A DNA stretch of 33,155 nucleotides from a virus: positions 1-33,155 of the IMG/VR virus record IMGVR_UViG_3300045921_000462. One strand, given 5' to 3'. Each line of letters begins with the position of its first letter. Position 1 is the first letter of the stretch. The notes under the pieces were generated by a model. That model searched no databases and was not told where the DNA came from. It worked only from the letters and a program-made list of their open reading frames with translations. Positions 2,989 through 28,503 of this stretch are shown one piece after another. Made by a program: the position numbers and the translations under genes.

Positions 2989-3576
2989 TCATACGGTGAG
3001 GACTCGCATCGCGTCAACAGCCTCCTGGTATGCAAGAGGCAGCTGTGTCGCTATGGTGCCAGTGACGACAGCCTCCCTGTTTGCATACATGTGGCCGACA
3101 TGGAGAAGTATGGCCTGCTTGATGAGGTGATGAAGTTGGCTGACGGTGTATCCGGCATCATAGCGGATGCGGAAGGGCATCGGTGCAAGTTCACCTTCGA
3201 CATCCGGCCAATCCAAGACAGGATATACCACACTCTCATCGCCAGCGATGTAAGCCCAATCGGAAGTCGGGATGTAGTAAGGCCCAGTAGTTTTCTGAAC
3301 GATGACGTGCTGGACAAGGTTCAGCGGAGGGAGTGGCAGCTTGATCTGTGTGGTAGTTCGCGCAGGATAATCTTCGAGCATCATGAGAAAAGTCTTGGAC
3401 TTGACGGAACGCTTCAGCAACCCACTGGTGCCATCAAGCGCAGCAGTCGCAGCCTCGATATACGAAGTGATGAGGCTATCATCAGCGTTGGTGTCAACGC
3501 GCAGATGCGCCTTCACGTCACTGAGTTGGACGATCGGGGTGCTAAGCTCGGACTCCTTGACAAGCCAGTATCTCAT
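2989..3576 (-). CDS. Head-tail connector protein (HK97 gp6-like)
   Basis: A 195-residue protein with QLSDVKAHLRVDTNADDSLI near the N-terminus and a helical first segment (ITSYIEAATAALDGTSG), the hallmark of gp6/gp15-type connector proteins that attach to the portal. A conserved PPLNLVQHVIV strand and a C-terminal helix (HLIKQAILLHVGHMYANREA) are also typical. The ATG was chosen over the adjacent GTG. Its ribosome site is weak, and a strong hairpin lies just upstream, which may tune expression relative to capsid genes. Confidence 0.83.
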   Translation of the reverse strand: MRYWLVKESELSTPIVQLSDVKAHLRVDTNADDSLITSYIEAATAALDGTSGLLKRSVKSKTFLMMLEDYPARTTTQIKLPLPPLNLVQHVIVQKTTGPYYIPTSDWAYIAGDESVVYPVLDWPDVEGELAPMPFRIRYDAGYTVSQLHHLIKQAILLHVGHMYANREAVVTGTIATQLPLAYQEAVDAMRVLTV

Positions 3577-3598
3577 CACAGCTTGCTCATGGGAAGCA

Positions 3599-3635
3599 GG
3601 CAGCAGCGCCGCCGGAGGAAAGCGACGCTGCTGCC
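3599..3635 (-). other. Strong intergenic hairpin after the capsid genes
   Basis: A perfect 10-bp stem (GGCAGCAGCG / CGCTGCTGCC) with a 17-nt loop lies in the gap between the decoration-like gene and the gp6-like gene. There is no U-tract after it on the minus strand, so it is more likely a partial attenuator, an RNase processing site or an mRNA stabiliser at the 3' end of the highly expressed capsid message than a full terminator. Confidence 0.5.
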
Positions 3636-3640
3636 ATCAC

Positions 3641-4030
3641 TCAGGCGACCGGCTGCTGGGCGAGGCGGCCGCGCAGGATCGCAGCCGAATAGGCGACCGA
3701 GGTGCCCGAGTTGAGCGTGCCAACCGCGCGGAGGTAGCGGCGGTGGCCACGGTATCCGACGATGAACACGCTGTTCTGCACGAGCGGGCTCGGGAAGGCA
3801 GCGCTCAGCTTGTCCGCAGGGACATCAGACCAGCTGCTGCCGTCGGCGCTGTCCTGCAGCTTGGGCGTGACATTGCCTGCGCCGACGACAGCACCGACAG
3901 CGAACACCACTGCTGCGCTGTTCGAGCCGCGCAGATCCACAGTCTCGCCATTGACGGAGGCGCTGTGGACTGCAGGGCGAATGCTCTCGGCGACCTCGAG
4001 CGAAGGCGCCAGATCACGTGCATTGGACAT
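3641..4030 (-). CDS. Capsid decoration-like protein (hypothetical)
   Basis: A 129-residue protein beginning MSNARDLAPSLEVAESIRPA, then VNGETVDLRGSNSAAVVFAV, a compact beta-rich region (LQDSADGSSWSDVP) and YRGHRRYLRAVGT. Small proteins of this type often sit directly downstream of the HK97-type capsid gene in alphaproteobacterial phages and prophages. The place and the beta-sandwich-like sequence fit a head decoration or stabilisation role, but no named family is certain. A hairpin follows its stop. Confidence 0.6.
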   Translation of the reverse strand: MSNARDLAPSLEVAESIRPAVHSASVNGETVDLRGSNSAAVVFAVGAVVGAGNVTPKLQDSADGSSWSDVPADKLSAAFPSPLVQNSVFIVGYRGHRRYLRAVGTLNSGTSVAYSAAILRGRLAQQPVA

Positions 4031-4054
4031 ATGGGGTCTCTCCCTCCTTCCTCA

Positions 4055-5362
4055 TCAGGTGCCGAAGCGGATGAACTTGATGGCCTCGAAGTTGAGCACA
4101 GCACCGCCGACGCGGCGGAACACGTGGAACTTCACGAAGCCAGGCAGCGTGATGTCGTCGCGGATGATGCGGTTGCCAAACCGATCCACGATCTGGTAGG
4201 CCGCGCTGAAGTTGCCGAACGCCAGCGACAGCGAGCCAGCGCCGAGCGAGGGCATGGCTTCTGCCTTGGTGATCGGATAGCCGAGCAGCGTGGACGGCTG
4301 GCCAGCCTGAAGGCCAGGCTGCCAGATGTAGGCATTGCTGGTGGACTCCTTGAACTTGCGGATCGTGGTGATCACGCTCTGCAGAGTCACCCACCGCGCG
4401 CCAGCGCGGTATTCGTCCTTCAGCGAATCCGAGATGTCGAACAGGATGTCCGAAGGATTGGTGTTGGCGAACGCGCCATTCACGCCGGTGTTGAAGTGCT
4501 GAAGCGTTCCCCACGCACGCGACCCATCGCCGGTAGTGGCAGTCGGATAGGTGGCGAAGCCACGCGGCTTGGCGATGCCATCGCCGGTGACGAAGGCGAC
4601 GCCTTCTGCGCGCGCGAACCGCTCGGAAGCCTTGTTGATCAGCCACGCCTCGACATCCACCGCCGCATCATCGAGCAGCTTGCGGGTTGTCCTCGGATAG
4701 GCATACATCTCCTCAGCCTGGATCCGCCACTGGCCGAGACGCGGCGTGGAGGTCTCCGAGCGAGTGTCCGTCTCGCCGACCCATGCGAAGCCTGCTTCCT
4801 CGTTGTCGTTCAGGCCTTCCAGCGCATCGGTGCTGATGGACTGAACGTTGGCGATGGACCGGATCGGCGACAGCTCGTAGACCTTCTGGATGATGCGGCC
4901 AGAAGTGTCTGCCGGCACCAGATAGCCGCCATCCGGGTCGGAGCCGACCGACATGGCCTTGCGCTCAGCGTCATAGAACGCATTCTGCCCCTTGCGCAGA
5001 TAGGCCTGGAAGCCCTGCTTGTAGGCGAGAGCCTCATCCTCGCTGACATCCGCGACGATGCGCCCACGCTCTGCAGCGAAGATGCGCAGATCGCGGTTGA
5101 AGGCCTTGATGTCGAGAGGCTTGGCGCCGCTGTTGTTGCCAGCCAGCGCGCTGCGCTCGAGACGCTTCTCGAGGGCATCGGCGCGCTTCGCCTGCGCCTC
5201 CAGCGATTCCTTCAGCGTGTCGAGCCGATCGAGCTCGGCATCGATGCGGTTGATCTTCTCGGTGATGACGACGTCAGCCTTCTTCTTCAGCGACTCGTCC
5301 ACCGTTGCCTTGAACTCGGCGAAAGCCTTTCCGAGCTCATTGATGGTCTGGTCAAGGTCCAT
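4055..5362 (-). CDS. HK97-family major capsid protein
   Basis: A 435-residue protein. Residues about 5-70 form a charged coiled coil (INELGKAFAEFKATVDESLK onward), the delta scaffold domain removed by the protease. The remainder carries the capsid fold: SDPDGGYLVPADTSGRIIQK, the E-loop/spine region with AGFAWVGETDTRSETSTPRL, FVTGDGIAKPRGF, and the C-terminal LPGFVKFHVFRRVGGAVLNF. The longer frame starting upstream was rejected because the ATG just after the protease stop (1-nt gap, GGGA upstream) gives the expected delta domain at the start. It assembles into the icosahedral shell. Confidence 0.95.
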   Translation of the reverse strand: MDLDQTINELGKAFAEFKATVDESLKKKADVVITEKINRIDAELDRLDTLKESLEAQAKRADALEKRLERSALAGNNSGAKPLDIKAFNRDLRIFAAERGRIVADVSEDEALAYKQGFQAYLRKGQNAFYDAERKAMSVGSDPDGGYLVPADTSGRIIQKVYELSPIRSIANVQSISTDALEGLNDNEEAGFAWVGETDTRSETSTPRLGQWRIQAEEMYAYPRTTRKLLDDAAVDVEAWLINKASERFARAEGVAFVTGDGIAKPRGFATYPTATTGDGSRAWGTLQHFNTGVNGAFANTNPSDILFDISDSLKDEYRAGARWVTLQSVITTIRKFKESTSNAYIWQPGLQAGQPSTLLGYPITKAEAMPSLGAGSLSLAFGNFSAAYQIVDRFGNRIIRDDITLPGFVKFHVFRRVGGAVLNFEAIKFIRFGT

Positions 5363-5363
5363 C

Positions 5364-6032
5364 TCAAGTGATCCCTGTCCGGAGTGTGGCGATAAGCCGC
5401 TGCAAAGCAGCAGCCGGTTCATCGGCTTCCTCTTCAGCATCACGCAGAGAGATTGCCTTGAAGCCCTTGGCCAGAATGGCCTTGGCTTCGCTGCGAGAGA
5501 AGCCGGCATCACGCAGGCCCTTCTCAGCATCGGTGATCGTCAAGCCACTCTTCACCCGCGCGACATTCGCCTTGGGATTCATCGGGAGCGTGACGACAGA
5601 TATCTCGATGAGGTCAACTTCCTTGATGCGGCGGATGCGCCCGTTGCGCTCGAACGCCGCGCCACCATCCGGGATGCGATAGCCGATGCTCAGGCCGCGC
5701 AGCGCGCCTTCCTTCATGAGGGCATGAACATCGCGCGCCTTGCCGACATCAAGGATCAGCTGGCCACGAACCATCAGGCCGCGATCGTCCTCCCTGATCT
5801 CAAGCCATTTGCCGATCGGCGGCTGGCGCGAATCATGTCCCCAGAGCATGGGGATGTCCGATGGCTTCGACTTGGACAGCGTCTGGCGAAAAGCGCCATT
5901 CTCGATGATGTCACCGCCATGGTCAACGTTGCCGAACGTGGAGCCATAGCCGACGAATTCCCCACGCGCAGCAGCGTCATCGCTGGCGAACTTGAACTCA
6001 GCAGCGGTGTCGAACTGGTCAGCCACAGGCAT
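5364..6032 (-). CDS. HK97-type prohead protease
   Basis: A 222-residue serine protease of the U35/S78 type. Visible signatures are FVGYGSTFGNVDHGGDII at the N-terminus, the catalytic histidine in MLWGHDSRQPPIGKW, the nucleophile serine in LRGLSIGYR, and the acidic motif in DLIEISVVTLPMNPKA. It cleaves the capsid delta domain during maturation. It lies between portal and capsid genes with almost no spacer on the capsid side. The C-terminal 60 residues are Ala/Glu-rich and probably act as the self-removed scaffold tail. Confidence 0.94.
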   Translation of the reverse strand: MPVADQFDTAAEFKFASDDAAARGEFVGYGSTFGNVDHGGDIIENGAFRQTLSKSKPSDIPMLWGHDSRQPPIGKWLEIREDDRGLMVRGQLILDVGKARDVHALMKEGALRGLSIGYRIPDGGAAFERNGRIRRIKEVDLIEISVVTLPMNPKANVARVKSGLTITDAEKGLRDAGFSRSEAKAILAKGFKAISLRDAEEEADEPAAALQRLIATLRTGIT

Positions 6033-23528: not shown

Positions 23529-23720
23529 GTGCCGATCACTCCAGGACACTTGTCACCACGCCCATCGCGGTGCGCTTTTGGTCCGCAACCTTAGTCGCGT
23601 ATCCTGTGCCGAAAGAAAAGTGATTTTGCTGACGCCGACGGCTGCATGCACAACGCTACGCTGCGCTGCGATCTAAAGTCCCTTGTGGGATGAACGCTCG
23701 CTGTTGTGAACGGTCGCTCC

Positions 23721-23780
23721 AGCCGAGAGCAGCCGGGGGCAGCCGGGGGCAGCCGAGGGCAGCCGGGGGCAGCCGAGGGC
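23721..23780 (+). repeat. Six tandem 10-bp repeats (iteron-like)
   Basis: Six adjacent units of consensus AGCCGRGGGC occur without spacers; only two positions vary. The 10-bp period puts every unit on the same face of the helix. The array is followed by an AT-richer segment (AGATTTGG ... CCAAAAAATC). The G runs on the plus strand could also form a quadruplex. Candidate binding array for a replication initiator or regulator. Confidence 0.8.
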
Positions 23781-23830: not shown

Positions 23831-23914
23831 TGGGTTTCTACGGCTCGGCTGTCGCCGGCATATAAAGGTAGCGCGACCCTCGCTAGACCGGCCTAGAAAC
23901 CCATTAGAATGGGT
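23831..23914. promoter_or_regulatory. Paired inverted repeats, candidate operators
   Basis: TGGGTTTCTA at 23831-23840 is matched by its exact reverse complement at 23894-23903. The second arm overlaps a further 16-bp palindrome, ACCCATT-AG-AATGGGT, at 23899-23914. The spacing between arms is about 63 bp (six helical turns). A TATAAA lies between them. Such an arrangement fits cooperative repressor binding over a divergent promoter region; no consensus -35 was recognised. Confidence 0.5.
23887..23906 (-). repeat. Copy of the block B motif in the divergent region
   Basis: On the minus strand this reads TAATGGGTTTCTAGGCCGGT, 19 of 20 identical to the core of block B copies 1 and 2. A degraded fourth match, TGGGTTTCTAcGGctCGG, lies on the plus strand from 23831. 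The match therefore links three separate intergenic control regions. Confidence 0.7.
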
Positions 23915-24205: not shown

Positions 24206-24210
24206 CGGCA

Positions 24211-24281
24211 ATCGGCTCCGGTGTCCAGCCGCTGCGGCGGCTGGCATCCCGAACCGATCGTGGTTCGTAATGGAGGAAGTC
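24211..24281 (+). ncRNA. Structured leader element, copy 1
   Basis: Order: TCGGCTCCGGTGT, stem CCAGCCGC / GCGGCTGG capped by UGCG (a C-UNCG-G tetraloop), GCATCC, second hairpin CGAACC-GATCGT-GGTTCG, then the ribosome site TGGAGGA and the start codon. ATCGG at the front can instead pair with CCGAT inside hairpin 2, and CTCC near the front is complementary to the GGAG of the ribosome site. Found before four genes in this operon. Confidence 0.75.
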
Positions 24282-24647
24282 ATGCTGAAGGAAGTCCGCG
24301 AAATCGTCACCAAGGCTCTCGACGAGGCGATCGCTGCAAAGGCGAGCTTCGTGAAGCTGATCTCCGATGGCAATTTCAGCCCGGAGGCGCTCGACCTTTA
24401 CCTCAGAAAGAGAGCCGCGAAAGAAGCGGCCTTGTATTTGGACATCCGCGTCTCGAAAGCCAACAACGAGAGCGAGGCAATCGAAGCTGCCGAGGAAGTC
24501 AAGCGGCAGCTGACCGAAGACGCTCTCTACATCTGGGCCGAACGCGAAGAAAATCCGACGATCGCCTACTGGGCCAATCCCAGGATGGATGGCAAATCGG
24601 ATATCGTCAGGGAGATTGACAAGCTCCTGAGGCAAGCTGCGGAGTAG
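24282..24647 (+). CDS. Hypothetical helical protein, first gene of the plus-strand operon
   Basis: A 121-residue charged protein (MLKEVREIVTKALDEAIAAK start), almost entirely helical by residue pattern, with KAASFVKL-like and ANPRMDGKSDIVREIDKLLR segments. No family recognised. The start is the ATG that follows the TGGAGGA ribosome site conserved in all leader copies; an in-frame ATG four codons earlier overlaps that site and is unlikely. Leader copy 2 begins right after its stop codon. Confidence 0.7.
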   Translation: MLKEVREIVTKALDEAIAAKASFVKLISDGNFSPEALDLYLRKRAAKEAALYLDIRVSKANNESEAIEAAEEVKRQLTEDALYIWAEREENPTIAYWANPRMDGKSDIVREIDKLLRQAAE

Positions 24648-24722
24648 GTCGGCTCCGGTGTCCAGCTGCTGCGGCGGCTGGCATCCCGAACCGATCATGG
24701 TTCATAATGGAGGAGAGGACAA
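24648..24722 (+). ncRNA. Structured leader element, copy 2
   Basis: Same order as copy 1. The first stem is CCAGCTGC / GCGGCTGG: one C-to-T change turns a C-G pair into U-G, so pairing is preserved, and the UGCG loop is unchanged. Hairpin 2 is GAACC-GATCAT-GGTTC. The front GGTCGG can still pair with CCGATC using one G-U pair. It starts on the base after the preceding stop and ends at the next ATG. Confidence 0.75.
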
Positions 24723-24941
24723 ATGGCGGAGTTCACGATCAATCCTGTGCGCACCTACGCAACGAAGCAAGCCGCCAGGAAGGCTGTTGCTCGGCTCGGG
24801 CTGAGCGATGTGCCGCACACGATCATCACTGCGGAAGTGGCAGCAGAGGATGGGGACATCCTCATTCGCTACTATCCGCTGTTCGTTGGGGAGCGTGCCC
24901 TGAGTGCAGGTGCACACTTCCACTTCAACGTGATCGGCTGA
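24723..24941 (+). CDS. Small hypothetical protein
   Basis: A 72-residue protein (MAEFTINPVRTYATKQAARK) with an alpha-beta pattern: a basic helix, then strands in PHTIITAEVAAEDGDILIRY and AHFHFNVIG. It looks like a compact single-domain protein of unknown function. The ATG is preceded by GGAGG from leader copy 2. Its stop codon's last base is the first base of leader copy 3. Confidence 0.7.
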   Translation: MAEFTINPVRTYATKQAARKAVARLGLSDVPHTIITAEVAAEDGDILIRYYPLFVGERALSAGAHFHFNVIG

Positions 24942-25035
24942 TCGGCTCCGGTGTCCAGCTGCTGCGGCGGCTGGCATCCCGAACCGATCTCGGTTCCACC
25001 TGGCAATCACGCCAGGTGCTGCGGAGGACAGACTG
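24941..25035 (+). ncRNA. Structured leader element, copy 3 (with an extra hairpin)
   Basis: Front sequence, wobble-containing first stem and UGCG loop as in copy 2; hairpin 2 is GAACC-GATCTC-GGTTC. Between hairpin 2 and the ribosome site there is an additional perfect 8-bp hairpin, CACCTGGC-AATCAC-GCCAGGTG, absent from the other copies. The ribosome site is GGAGGA, ending 8 bases before the ATG. GATCGG at the front pairs fully with CCGATC. Confidence 0.75.
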
Positions 25036-25977
25036 ATGTCACATGAGGTCGAGACGATGGCCTACGCCAACGAGGTTCCGTGGCATGGCCTGGGCACGAA
25101 GGTGTCGCCCGACGCGACGGTGGACGAGATGCTGGCGGCTGCCGGCCTGGACTGGCAGGTGATCAAGCAGCCACTCTACCTGCGCAGCGCGGACGGCACC
25201 TATCGCGCCACCAAGCGTTTCGCGCTGGTGCGCGACCGCGATGAGGAGGTGCTCACCTACACGGCCGATGGGTGGACGCCATTCCAGAACCGCGATGCGC
25301 TCAACTTCTTCCGGCGCTTCGCGGAGGCGGGCAGCATCCGCCTGGAGACGGCGGGCAGCCTGCGCAGGGGGCGGGTGATCTGGGCTCTGGCCCGGATCAA
25401 CCATTCCTTCGATGCGACGCCTGGCGACCGCGTGAACGGCTACATCCTGCTGGTGTCGCCGCACGAGGTCGGCAGCGCGATCAGCGTGCGCACCACCAGC
25501 GTGCGTGTGGTCTGCGCGAACACGATGGCGCTGGCGACGCGCACCGATGAGGGTGTCCACTATCGCCAGAACCACATGAGCGAGTTCGACGAGGCGGCTG
25601 CGCGCGCGGCTGTCGAGCGCGCCCATGAGCACATGAGCGAGGCTGCGCGTCACGCCAAGACGCTCGCCAACCTCAAGCTGGGGATGCACGACACGGTGCG
25701 CTTCCTCGGCCAGTTCTTCGGGCACCCGCAGATGAGCGACGAGGAAATCGCCGATGAGGCGCGCTGGTCGCAGTCGCTGTGCGGTGTCATGGAGAGCGTG
25801 ATCAGCGCGCCTGGTGCCGATCCGGGCACTGGCTGGGGTGTGTTGGCGGGCGTCACCCACTGGTGCGACCATGTGGCGGGTCGCAGCGCGGATGCGCGGC
25901 TGACGCGCAGCTGGCTCGGCGACTACGCGCGGCTGAAGGAAGACGTCAGCGATGGCCTGATGATGCTGGCCCGCTGA
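25036..25977 (+). CDS. DUF932 / phage-plasmid-related protein (TIGR03299-like)
   Basis: A 313-residue protein with family signatures MSHEVETMAYANEVPWHGLG, the DATVDEMLAAAGLDWQV region, and SVRTTSVRVVCANTMALATR in the middle, followed by a helical C-terminal half. DUF932 proteins are common in phages and plasmids and are found near DNA-metabolism genes; the function is unproven. The strong leader and ribosome site suggest high early expression. A large hairpin lies directly after the stop codon. Confidence 0.88.
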   Translation: MSHEVETMAYANEVPWHGLGTKVSPDATVDEMLAAAGLDWQVIKQPLYLRSADGTYRATKRFALVRDRDEEVLTYTADGWTPFQNRDALNFFRRFAEAGSIRLETAGSLRRGRVIWALARINHSFDATPGDRVNGYILLVSPHEVGSAISVRTTSVRVVCANTMALATRTDEGVHYRQNHMSEFDEAAARAAVERAHEHMSEAARHAKTLANLKLGMHDTVRFLGQFFGHPQMSDEEIADEARWSQSLCGVMESVISAPGADPGTGWGVLAGVTHWCDHVAGRSADARLTRSWLGDYARLKEDVSDGLMMLAR

Positions 25978-25987
25978 TCGCTACTAC

Positions 25988-26016
25988 TGCGAGCGTCGCA
26001 CCATGCGGCGCTCGCA
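25988..26016 (+). other. Strong intergenic hairpin after the DUF932 gene
   Basis: A 13-pair stem with a CCA triloop: TGCGAGCGTCGCA / TGCGGCGCTCGCA, with a single U-G pair. It begins ten bases after the stop. There is no T-run behind it, so it is unlikely to terminate; it could be a processing or stability element. It takes the place of the leader element before the one gene of the operon that lacks that leader. Confidence 0.55.
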
Positions 26017-26051
26017 CCCACCAACCAACCACAGGAACAGGAAACAAGACG

Positions 26052-26870
26052 ATGTCCGACGTGAACGAGATGACTGGCCAGGAGCTGGTCGGTGCCTACA
26101 ACACGATCGCTGCGCGCAACGGCTGGAAGCAGGTGGCGAGGTTCTCCTCGCGCCAGGAAGGCCTGCGGCGCATCCAGATCCTCATGGACATGGAGAAGCA
26201 GAAGGTGGAAGACAGGAAGAACGCCAATGCTGAAGATGCGGTGACGAAGAGCGCGCTGCGCATCGCCGCCGCCGCCAAGGCGGAGGAAGAGGCGAAGGCC
26301 GAAGCGAAGGCCGAAGCCAAGGCCGAAGCCAAGGCGGCTCGCGCAGCCAAGAAGGCCGAACGCAACACGCCGGAGGCCAAGGCGGCTCGCGACGCCGAGC
26401 GCGCGGCCAAGCGGGAGGCCAAGGCGGCTGCGCGTGCGGCGCTGAAGGCTGAGCGCGACGCCGAGCGTGAGGCCAAGCGTGAGGCCAAGCGTGAGGCCAA
26501 GAAGGCCGAGCGTCCTGCTCAGAAGGTCTCGCTGCTCAGCCGCGCGGCTGCCGCGTTCGGCGGTGTCGAGTCCGACCTCAGCGACAAGATCGGGAGCCTG
26601 CCGGTGGCCAACACGGTGGCCAATCGCGCGAAGCGTCAGATGCGCGAAGGCGCAGCGCCGCGCGGTGGTTATCACGGGAGGTATGCGGCCAAGAAGATGT
26701 TCCCGATTGACCACAAGAACCCCTTCCGCAAGGGCAGTGCCTCCTGGCACGGGTTCGAGGTGGTGATCGCTGAGCCTGGCATCACGCTGCGCGAATACAT
26801 GGAGCGCGGCCTGCGGCGCCAGAGCATCCTCTACGCGATCAAGCAGCAGTGGGTGCGGCTGGAGGATTGA
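26052..26870 (+). CDS. Lys/Ala/Glu-rich phage protein with long charged helix
   Basis: A 272-residue protein. Residues 1-50 (MSDVNEMTGQELVGAYNTIA) match a module found in other phage proteins (FNxMTGxELVxxYN). Residues about 75-160 are a repetitive KAEAKAEA / REAKREAK helix. The C-terminal ITLREYMERGLRRQSILYAI resembles the small domain seen in DUF3489-like proteins. A nucleic-acid-binding role is possible from the charge pattern but unproven. The start ATG follows AGGAAACAAG rather than the shared leader; a longer upstream frame overlaps DUF932 and was discarded. Confidence 0.75.
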   Translation: MSDVNEMTGQELVGAYNTIAARNGWKQVARFSSRQEGLRRIQILMDMEKQKVEDRKNANAEDAVTKSALRIAAAAKAEEEAKAEAKAEAKAEAKAARAAKKAERNTPEAKAARDAERAAKREAKAAARAALKAERDAEREAKREAKREAKKAERPAQKVSLLSRAAAAFGGVESDLSDKIGSLPVANTVANRAKRQMREGAAPRGGYHGRYAAKKMFPIDHKNPFRKGSASWHGFEVVIAEPGITLREYMERGLRRQSILYAIKQQWVRLED

Positions 26871-26948
26871 TCGGCTCCGGTGTCGGGCTGCCCTTGCGAG
26901 AGGGCAGCCCGCATCCCGAACCGATCCTGGTTCGTCATGGAGGAAGAG
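26869..26948 (+). ncRNA. Structured leader element, copy 4 (stem replaced)
   Basis: Front and hairpin 2 (CGAACC-GATCCT-GGTTCG) are conserved, but the first stem has a completely different sequence, CGGGCTGCCCT / AGGGCAGCCCG, 11 pairs long, capped by U-GCGA-G, a GNRA tetraloop instead of UNCG. The shape is therefore kept while the sequence is not. TGGAGGA follows, then the ATG. The element overlaps the preceding stop codon by two bases. Confidence 0.8.
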
Positions 26949-28010
26949 ATGACCAACAGCATCGTTACCATCCGCCGCGCGCATGGCGGCGACGTGATCT
27001 TCAGCGGGGAATATCGCTCGTTCCGCGAGGCAGTGACTGCTGCGGTGATGAGCTGCGCAGATATGCGCGGCGCTGACCTGTGCTCGGAAGACATGCGCGG
27101 CATCGATCTGCGCGATGTGAACCTGAGCGGCGCTGACCTGCACAACGCAGATTTGCGCAGTGCGGATCTGCGCGGTGCGGATCTGACGAATGCCGACCTC
27201 AGCGGTGCTCATCTGGACGGTGCGGATCTGACGAATGCCGACCTCAGCGGTGCTCATCTGGACGGTGCGGATCTGCGCGGTGCGATCCTCGCTGATGCGG
27301 ACTTCAGCGAGGCGGACATGGCCAGCGTGAGCATGGCAGGCGCCAACCTGCGCGGCGCTTCGCTGCGCTGCGTGAACGCGAACTACGCGATCTTCGACAG
27401 CGCAGACATGTGCAGCGTGAATGCGGATGGCGCCCATCTGCGCGGTGCCAGTATGCGCAAGGCTAACATGCGCGACGCCTCGCTGAATGGTGCCGATCTG
27501 TTCAACGCAGACATGGCTGGCAGCGATCTATCCGATGCGGACATGCAAGGCTCGGTGCTGAGCGGCGCGATCCTGACCAGGGCTGTTCTGCGTGGCGCCA
27601 ACCTGAACTGTGCAGACATGGCTGGCGCCTCTCTGAGCGACGCCGATCTGAGCGCCGCATCGCTGCTGGAAGCGGAACTGTCGAGCGCTGATCTGCGCGG
27701 CACGATCTTGCCGGATGCGCCGTCTGTCCCGAACCTCGACGCAGCGATCCTGGATGCGATCGGGCCAGACAGGAAAGGGCTGGACATGTCGAGCTGGCAC
27801 GGCAAGTGCGGAACAACGCACTGCCGTGCTGGGTGGACAGTGACGCTGGCTGGCAAGAACGGCAGCCGCCTGGAGGACGAGGTCGGAACCAGCGCGGCTG
27901 CGGCGCTCATCTACGCCGCCAGCACGCCGGGCGGCTGCATCGTCCCTGACTGGTATGCGAGCGAGGAAGACTCGGTCTCAGACATGCGCAGCCGTGCACA
28001 TCTCGTCTGA
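26949..28010 (+). CDS. Pentapeptide-repeat protein
   Basis: A 353-residue protein. After a ~35-residue head (MTNSIVTIRRAHGGDVIFSG) come about 45 tandem A(D/N)LxG-type repeats (DLRGADLTNADLSGAHLDGA), which fold as a right-handed quadrilateral beta helix. The C-terminal ~75 residues (WHGKCGTTHCRAGWTVTLAG...SDMRSRAHL) form a conserved domain seen behind phage pentapeptide repeats. Some pentapeptide proteins mimic DNA and block gyrase; whether this one does is unknown. Start chosen at the ATG after the leader's ribosome site. Followed by an intrinsic terminator. Confidence 0.9.
   Translation: MTNSIVTIRRAHGGDVIFSGEYRSFREAVTAAVMSCADMRGADLCSEDMRGIDLRDVNLSGADLHNADLRSADLRGADLTNADLSGAHLDGADLTNADLSGAHLDGADLRGAILADADFSEADMASVSMAGANLRGASLRCVNANYAIFDSADMCSVNADGAHLRGASMRKANMRDASLNGADLFNADMAGSDLSDADMQGSVLSGAILTRAVLRGANLNCADMAGASLSDADLSAASLLEAELSSADLRGTILPDAPSVPNLDAAILDAIGPDRKGLDMSSWHGKCGTTHCRAGWTVTLAGKNGSRLEDEVGTSAAAALIYAASTPGGCIVPDWYASEEDSVSDMRSRAHLV
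27174..27263 (+). repeat. Exact tandem 45-bp duplication in the pentapeptide gene
   Basis: Two identical 45-bp units (15 codons, three pentapeptides) stand head to tail; a partial third copy follows. Identity at synonymous sites shows the duplication is recent compared with the remaining repeats. Confidence 0.85.
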
Positions 28011-28025
28011 CAGCTGATGGCTGAA

Positions 28026-28067
28026 GGCGCGGTCGGCCTGGGGTTTCCAGGCCAGCCGCGCCTTTTT
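28026..28067 (+). terminator. Intrinsic terminator of the plus-strand operon
   Basis: Arms GGCGCGG and GGCCTGG pair with CCAGGCC and CCGCGCC across a small internal mismatch, with a GGTTT loop and TTTTT immediately after. It lies 15 bases past the pentapeptide gene stop and should end the message begun at the divergent control region. Confidence 0.9.
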
Positions 28068-28108: not shown

Positions 28109-28222
28109 GAAGTCGCCGTAGGGCCGAAATAATGGGATTCTAGGCCGGTCCCTGGTCTGACCCTAGCAACCCTACAGCCCCTATCCGGAGACCCAGCTGC
28201 CTGCCCACCGCTGCCCAGCCGC
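28109..28222 (+). repeat. Block B, copy 2
   Basis: Identical for 44 bp to 10490-10533 and similar for a further ~70 bp. It contains TAATGGGATTCTAGGCCGGT. A shorter match, TTCTAGGCCG, also occurs just upstream at 28071. CCTAGG occurs twice just before the block. Unlike copy 1 it is non-coding. The neighbouring element A has opposite relative orientation in the two places. Confidence 0.8.
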
Positions 28223-28237
28223 CTTGCCGCCCTGCCG

Positions 28238-28290
28238 CCCCCCCCCCCGCGCCGCCGCCGCCCAGCCGCCCAGCCGCCCAGCCGCCCAGG
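28238..28290 (-). repeat. C-run and CCCAGCCG tandem repeats (G-quadruplex potential)
   Basis: A run of eleven C is followed by GCC triplets and then three tandem CCCAGCCG units plus a partial one, ending where element A begins. On the minus strand this gives many GGG runs at short spacing, so a G-quadruplex could form there, just upstream of the helicase promoter. The run length may also be error-prone in sequencing. Confidence 0.6.
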
Positions 28291-28409
28291 ATCCAGATCC
28301 ATTTTTTCCCCTATTTTCACCTTACGCGCGAGAAGCAATAAAAACGAAAGAGTAATAAATGTATTTTCGAAAAAGGGGGGAAATTGGGGAGAAAATCGGA
28401 TCTGGATCC
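28289..28409 (+). repeat. Element A, copy 2
   Basis: A 121-bp block bounded by perfect 12-bp inverted ends, GGATCCAGATCC and GGATCTGGATCC, extended imperfectly to about 24 bp. The interior matches copy 1 (10062-10184) in opposite genome orientation but in the same orientation relative to the gene it precedes. It contains an AT-rich core and then a run of G. It lies 95 bp upstream of the helicase gene. Confidence 0.8.
28316..28344 (+). promoter_or_regulatory. Candidate promoter of the helicase operon
   Basis: TTCACC, 17-nt spacer, TAAAAA; each hexamer matches four of six vegetative consensus positions. Sequence identical to the candidate late promoter in element A copy 1. Confidence 0.45.
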
Positions 28410-28503
28410 TGCGCCTCGCCCCCCTTCTGCTGTGCGGTTGTGCGGCCATTGAACGCCAGCAAACTCACTTTTCTCCGCCTCATTTTTCCGCGAAAAGAGG
28501 CGC

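Follow-up and report, generated by a model that had tools for sequence, protein, structure and literature searches.

The viral sequence analysed here, all 33,155 nucleotides (nt) of IMG/VR record IMGVR_UViG_3300045921_000462 (positions 1 to 33,155; hereafter the window), contains between 24.2 and 28.0 kilobases (kb) a phage operon in which four copies of an RNA hairpin element stand before four genes. An earlier note, made from the sequence alone, had recognised these copies and had called the genes behind them otherwise unrelated, which is also what we find. The four copies belong to a wider RNA family that is absent from Rfam 15 and, judging from sequence searches, apparently undescribed. 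The copies, with coordinates taken from the covariance model described below, and the genes of the operon (lengths in amino acids, aa, and base pairs, bp) are as follows.

24208..24260, + strand: copy 1 of the hairpin element, preceding the 121-aa gene that starts at 24282
24249..24267, + strand: alternative hairpin GAACC/GGTTC of copy 1, found at the same place in copies 2-4
24282..24647, + strand: gene after copy 1, 121 aa, of unknown function and without a Pfam or PHROGs match
24645..24697, + strand: copy 2, preceding the 72-aa gene
24723..24941, + strand: gene after copy 2, 72 aa
24938..24990, + strand: copy 3, preceding the DUF932 gene
25036..25977, + strand: gene after copy 3, DUF932 (PF06067, E = 6.9e-36)
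26052..26870, + strand: gene for a basic, repetitive protein of 272 aa
26867..26927, + strand: copy 4, with a differing 12-bp inner stem and a GCGA loop, preceding the pentapeptide-repeat gene
26949..28010, + strand: gene after copy 4, pentapeptide-repeat protein (PF00805, E = 1.3e-64)

In all four copies TCGGCTCCGGTGT and GCATCCCGAACCGATC are identical, and a 16-mer search allowing up to three mismatches gave six matches in the window against 0.57 expected, a number reached in none of 100 shuffles. The stems vary as the earlier note described, with C-G in copy 1 where copies 2 and 3 have U-G, a different stem in copy 4 and a change of the loop from UGCG to GCGA, except that the replacement stem of copy 4 has 12 pairs by our count and not 11. 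The upstream gene's stop codon TAG (24645-24647) lies at the foot of the outer stem of copy 2, and the stop codons TGA at 24939-24941 and at 26868-26870 lie inside the outer stems of copy 3 (in its 5' strand) and copy 4, respectively; copy 1 is the sole copy in the window without an upstream open reading frame (ORF) ending inside the element. What had been taken for a leader RNA is thus a structured RNA but not a 5' leader, since copies 2-4 sit between a stop codon and the next Shine-Dalgarno (SD) sequence. No copy was found in the gap upstream of the 272-aa gene (25978-26051), where a different hairpin (GCGAGCG...CGCTCGC) is present at 25988-26016.

The RNA family and its fold

The search with a covariance model and the comparison with Rfam that the earlier note had proposed were both carried out. 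Matches to the model numbered 53, spread over 36 sequences, and Rhodobacter phage RcapNL gave one more; some of the carrier contigs are near-duplicates, so that these sequence counts exceed the number of independent events. At gathering scores none of the 4227 families of Rfam 15 matched the element in the window or in the other carrier sequences searched, and relaxing the threshold to E = 5 near the window copies gave nothing credible.

When viral contigs were scanned for the conserved arms, a close relative was found, contig IMGVR_UViG_3300044940_000199, in which all four copies precede the same genes and possess other inner stems (GAAA, for example, replaces GCGA). Divergent members, with both outer and inner stems differing, were obtained with a shorter core pattern and a stem filter, and BLASTN with short elements recovered members in Microcystis phages Mae-JY02 and Mel-JY03, Sinorhizobium phage PBC5 and Paracoccus phage Pben1. 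A model built from 16 members and then applied to contigs with the UUCC version of the core returned 46 matches at E < 1e-4, with a gap from 34 to 19 bits before the next match. Exact core patterns were used in the family-wide searches; RcapNL, PBC5, Pben1 and Mae-JY02 were found without one, the RcapNL copy, at 27984-28047 of its record and behind the DUF2303 gene, by synteny of that gene (E = 5.6e-11 with the model). The element is nevertheless not tied to that gene, because the DUF2303 genes of six phages (phi3LM21, RR1-A, TMCBR3, BcepIL02, BcepMigl and AmM-1) have no detectable copy nearby. In RcapNL, a second, degenerate-looking piece of the element was noticed between RcapNL_00041 and RcapNL_00040 (L497:1600-1640, about 27730-27770 of the record), a place where the model has no match. 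Mae-JY02 (L398, PP395635) and RcapNL share 22 protein pairs, and for this reason the Microcystis host label of Mae-JY02 appears doubtful on sequence grounds.

The yield from bacterial genomes and plasmids was small. Little was obtained with the covariance model in six alphaproteobacterial genomes, in a first look that scored 150 candidates per genome, or from plasmids by blastn. In 395 genomes of one family the core pattern found a single sequence resembling a copy, which is identical to the L328 element, and the remaining matches were unlike the element by eye. Matches in Mycobacterium phage Sbash (E = 0.17) and phage MW202867.1 were rejected on inspection.

The members are predicted to fold into an irregular hairpin of about 20 bp (17-25 per element), which consists, in order, of an outer stem, UC:GA, a C.C mismatch, GG:CC, a bulged U, UG:CA, a one-base bulge and a variable upper stem. 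In an alignment fitted to the model (53 matches, 51 of them distinct), 18 of the 22 pairs show changes on both sides, including the core pairs 10-60, 11-59 and 13-57. The covariation score is 0.457, compared with 0.133 for shuffled alignments (the observed score being reached in 0 of 500) and with no more than 0.103 after sliding of the 3' partners. An unfitted alignment of 20 members, including RcapNL (MAFFT/RNAalifold), yields this hairpin again, and 14 of its 18 pairs are compensated. Because rare core variants change both partners (UC:GA to AU:AU, and GG:CC to UG:CA), the pairing register is fixed. The claim of a functional RNA whose shape is kept over its sequence had been made to depend on covarying homologues elsewhere; such homologues exist, and the claim stands.

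The bulged U is invariant (51 of 51 rows), and the other one-base bulge, which lies on the opposite strand two base pairs away, is never G. At the position of the C.C mismatch, C.A occurs in seven and U-A in three of the 51 rows, and the C.A position is U-A in 26 of them; in the RcapNL core, everything is paired apart from the two one-base bulges. An A.C mismatch is often kept in the outer stem at the A of UGA.

The second hairpin (GAACC/GGTTC), which the earlier note had counted as part of the conserved motif, uses bases of the outer stem (GATCGG/CCGATC), so that the two exclude each other. All eight copies of the window lineage keep it, lying there within 0-4 kcal/mol of the outer stem, but it is absent from the other relatives. 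A local switch between the two structures in the window lineage is possible; a general switch was rejected, the hairpin being lineage-specific. Sequestration of the SD by CUCC:GGAG was likewise rejected as a general function, since relatives with UAUC, UUCC-UG, CUCUGG or CUUUGG cannot form it. CAUCCCGAAC resembles loop C of 5S ribosomal RNA (rRNA). Mimicry of 5S rRNA is, however, unsupported, because the core variants break the likeness and the Rfam matches near the copies did not include 5S.

Position between genes and a hammerhead-bearing relative

The upstream frame ends in the 5' strand of the outer stem, or at its foot, in 51 of 52 copies (for a few of the 52 this frame is short), and the stop codon is UGA in 48 of the 51 copies with an upstream stop. 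The distance from the stop codon to the core GG is exactly 9 nt in 24 copies and 9-11 nt in 43. On the other side, a start codon with an SD-like sequence is recognized 10-86 nt past the modelled element in 47 of the 52 copies. Every copy is oriented as its flanking genes, and these are diverse (RecT, DUF2303, DUF6260, SprT-like, leucine-rich repeats, DUF932, pentapeptide repeats and many unknowns); the DUF6260 neighbour is related (51%) to major capsid proteins of Klebsiella and Citrobacter phages. The riboswitch, defined by a ligand-binding aptamer, an expression platform and genes belonging to one pathway, was also considered; on the last of these points, the genes behind the copies proved unrelated. 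No terminator-like or promoter-like (sigma-70-like) site was found to coincide with a copy, and the test for intrinsic terminators found no T run directly after the other elements.

A relative of the window, contig IMGVR_UViG_3300032278_000067 (L008), encodes a DUF932 protein 51% identical to that of the window, with an SNF2-type helicase gene downstream in both. Its operon (3376-5956) carries five type II hammerheads above the Rfam gathering score and a sixth recognized by descriptor, each located just past a stop codon and ahead of an SD (at the sixth, the upstream frame is short). Two of them precede homologues of window genes that bear a copy, namely the DUF932 gene and the 72-aa gene, although in the latter case the similarity to L008:3483-3716 is weak (26% over 61 aa, E = 5e-5). 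The hairpin element was not found in L008, and Rfam found no hammerhead in the window or the other carrier sequences searched. The L008 gap behind DUF932 has no hammerhead, just as the corresponding gap of the window is without an element copy. In most of the L008 hammerheads, a stem I loop shows apparent complementarity to the bases immediately past the core.

The window operon is also flanked by repeats of other kinds. Two pairs of 21-bp inverted repeats (23614-23634 / 28454-28474 and 23886-23906 / 28130-28150; 90% and 95%, respectively) lie on both sides of the 24.2-28.0 kb region and are perhaps regulatory sites, and short tandem repeats of a 10-bp CAGCCGGGGG type and an 8-bp CAGCCGCC type occur on either side, at 23720-23779 and 28197-28295.

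Proposed processing of phage messages and other readings

Several known systems invite comparison. The type II hammerheads that lie between phage genes (Rfam RF02276) resemble the element in that they follow a stop codon, precede an SD, occur several times per operon and stand before unrelated genes. The element, however, is a single irregular hairpin with no three-stem junction and hardly any unpaired conserved bases, and the hammerhead core (CUGANGA, GAAA and NUH around a three-stem junction) was not found in any member. The RNase III sites of phage T7 (R1.1 and its relatives) are likewise hairpins of irregular shape, about 60 nt long, that lie between the genes of a polycistronic phage message, with the irregularity near the middle. 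Compared with R1.1 as it is described, the element has a more conserved core and a much smaller internal loop (4/5 nt in R1.1), and occurs in many unrelated phages.

The parallel drawn in the earlier note, the start-associated sequences (SAS) of cluster K mycobacteriophages, is weak, the hammerheads and the T7 sites being nearer. The SAS are 13-bp sequences with AGGAG in the position of the ribosome-binding site, half of them with 17-bp inverted repeats (PMC3203893). SAS and extended SAS resemble the element in being found in one orientation beside the start codons of many unrelated phage genes, in having an extended form with an inverted repeat, and in sometimes including the upstream termination codon. 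The SAS, however, is a linear 13-bp GGGATAGGAGCCC that contains the SD, whereas the element is a covarying hairpin with the SD outside, and GGGATAGGAGCCC was not found around the window copies or the relatives.

Our preferred reading, held tentatively and with rather less than even confidence, is that the element is an intergenic hairpin for processing of messenger RNA (mRNA) that is read by the host, most likely as an RNase III site. In this mechanism the polycistronic phage transcript would fold each element into an irregular helix of about 20 bp with the conserved core near its middle, and the core would be recognised by a host endonuclease specific for double strands (RNase III being the most likely one) or by a host protein that works together with this enzyme. 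A cut there would part the two messages, the upstream one with its stop codon within the stem or at its foot and the downstream one with its SD behind the element, and might thereby tune the stability or the translation of the single messages.

A reader encoded by the host is the likelier because the carrier phages have no protein in common: BLASTP of stop-to-stop ORFs (E < 1e-4) found no protein family common to all carriers, with none shared by the window and PBC5 or by PBC5 and Mae-JY02. The slot between genes, the number of copies per operon and the unrelated genes point to message handling rather than to control of one pathway. RNase III is the leading candidate because T7 processes its transcripts via irregular intergenic hairpins of about 60 nt, and the element, as an irregular intergenic hairpin with about two helical turns, has the form of such a site. 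R1.1 itself, an irregular hairpin 60 nt long that separates genes 1.0 and 1.1, is cut by RNase III and also by the RNase III of S. meliloti (PMC6121014; PMC8708148). Tandem hammerheads that flank prophage genes self-cleave, and it has been suggested that long phage transcripts are processed by them into shorter mRNAs (PMC3088659).

Several points weigh against this proposal. The sequence conservation of the core is above what RNase III usually needs and fits a sequence-specific binding protein as well or better. The conservation is itself partly a matter of ascertainment, exact core patterns having been used in the family-wide searches. The S. meliloti RNase III reportedly needs longer double-stranded RNA than the E. 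coli enzyme (PMC6121014), and only one relative with hammerheads was found.

Because the core is so strongly conserved, a bound regulator is the main and a serious rival, possible though we lean away from it. In this case a host RNA-binding protein would grip the core and hold the hairpin beside the SD, blocking or allowing initiation at several genes. The highly conserved bulges and base-specific pairs are like those of known protein-bound hairpins, and the SD is close behind most copies; but the downstream genes, in recombination, unknown and capsid contexts, would make a strange group for shared regulation, a hammerhead occupying that slot would be no protein operator, and no phage protein common to the carriers was found. 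The location directly at the stop codon and the stable fold would also suit a passive stabiliser or insulator, which protects the upstream 3' end or blocks ribosomes or exonucleases between genes without specific recognition. We consider this unlikely, since the core pairs, the invariant bulged U and the bulge that is never G are kept while other parts of the stem vary freely.

The regular spacing could mean that a ribosome ending at UGA opens the outer stem, so that the fold and its reader respond to upstream termination. The stop codon lies mostly 9-11 nt ahead of the core and is UGA in nearly all cases, and the outer stem often has its A.C mismatch at the A of UGA. This reading is nevertheless improbable, as the spacing may reflect nothing more than tight packing, a high frequency of UGA is expected in GC-rich phages, and copy 1 of the window lacks an upstream stop. 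A broader version, in which a built-in stop lets ribosome exit time the cutting or opening of the junction as a widespread phage device, to whose slot hairpin and hammerheads were recruited separately, also seems rather unlikely.

The RAGATH RNAs, from ribozyme-association searches of 2015, are reportedly structured RNAs near genes that carry ribozymes elsewhere; the RAGATH families held in Rfam 15 gave no match to the element. A new class of small self-cleaving ribozyme in place of the hammerheads would explain the shared genomic slot and the several copies per operon, and classes were found earlier through this kind of association (PMC4604425). This is very unlikely, however, because nearly all of the core can pair: few conserved bases are unpaired, Watson-Crick pairs can take the place of the C.C and C.A mismatches, and the core of RcapNL is paired but for its two one-base bulges; the small ribozymes known so far require more extensive unpaired cores. 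Lastly, an antitermination site of the nut or put type, or another signal at the level of transcription, is scarcely credible: some copies do lie in early, repressor-adjacent operons (Pben1, Mae-JY02 and RcapNL), but several copies follow one another at intervals of a few hundred bases, in successive gene junctions and with a stop codon before and an SD after them, one context being behind a capsid-like gene, and terminator-like or sigma-70-like sites coincide with none.

The element constitutes an RNA family missing from Rfam 15 and supported by covariation. It occurs in phages that infect alphaproteobacteria and, apparently, in those of other hosts too, and among its carriers are phages in culture from Rhodobacter capsulatus, Paracoccus and Sinorhizobium meliloti. 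The hammerheads in the same slots of a relative make it testable why phages put self-cleaving or processable RNAs between their genes. If it is true that a host enzyme cuts the hairpin, as the processing reading supposes, protein-dependent and RNA-catalysed processing would be interchangeable solutions to one need.

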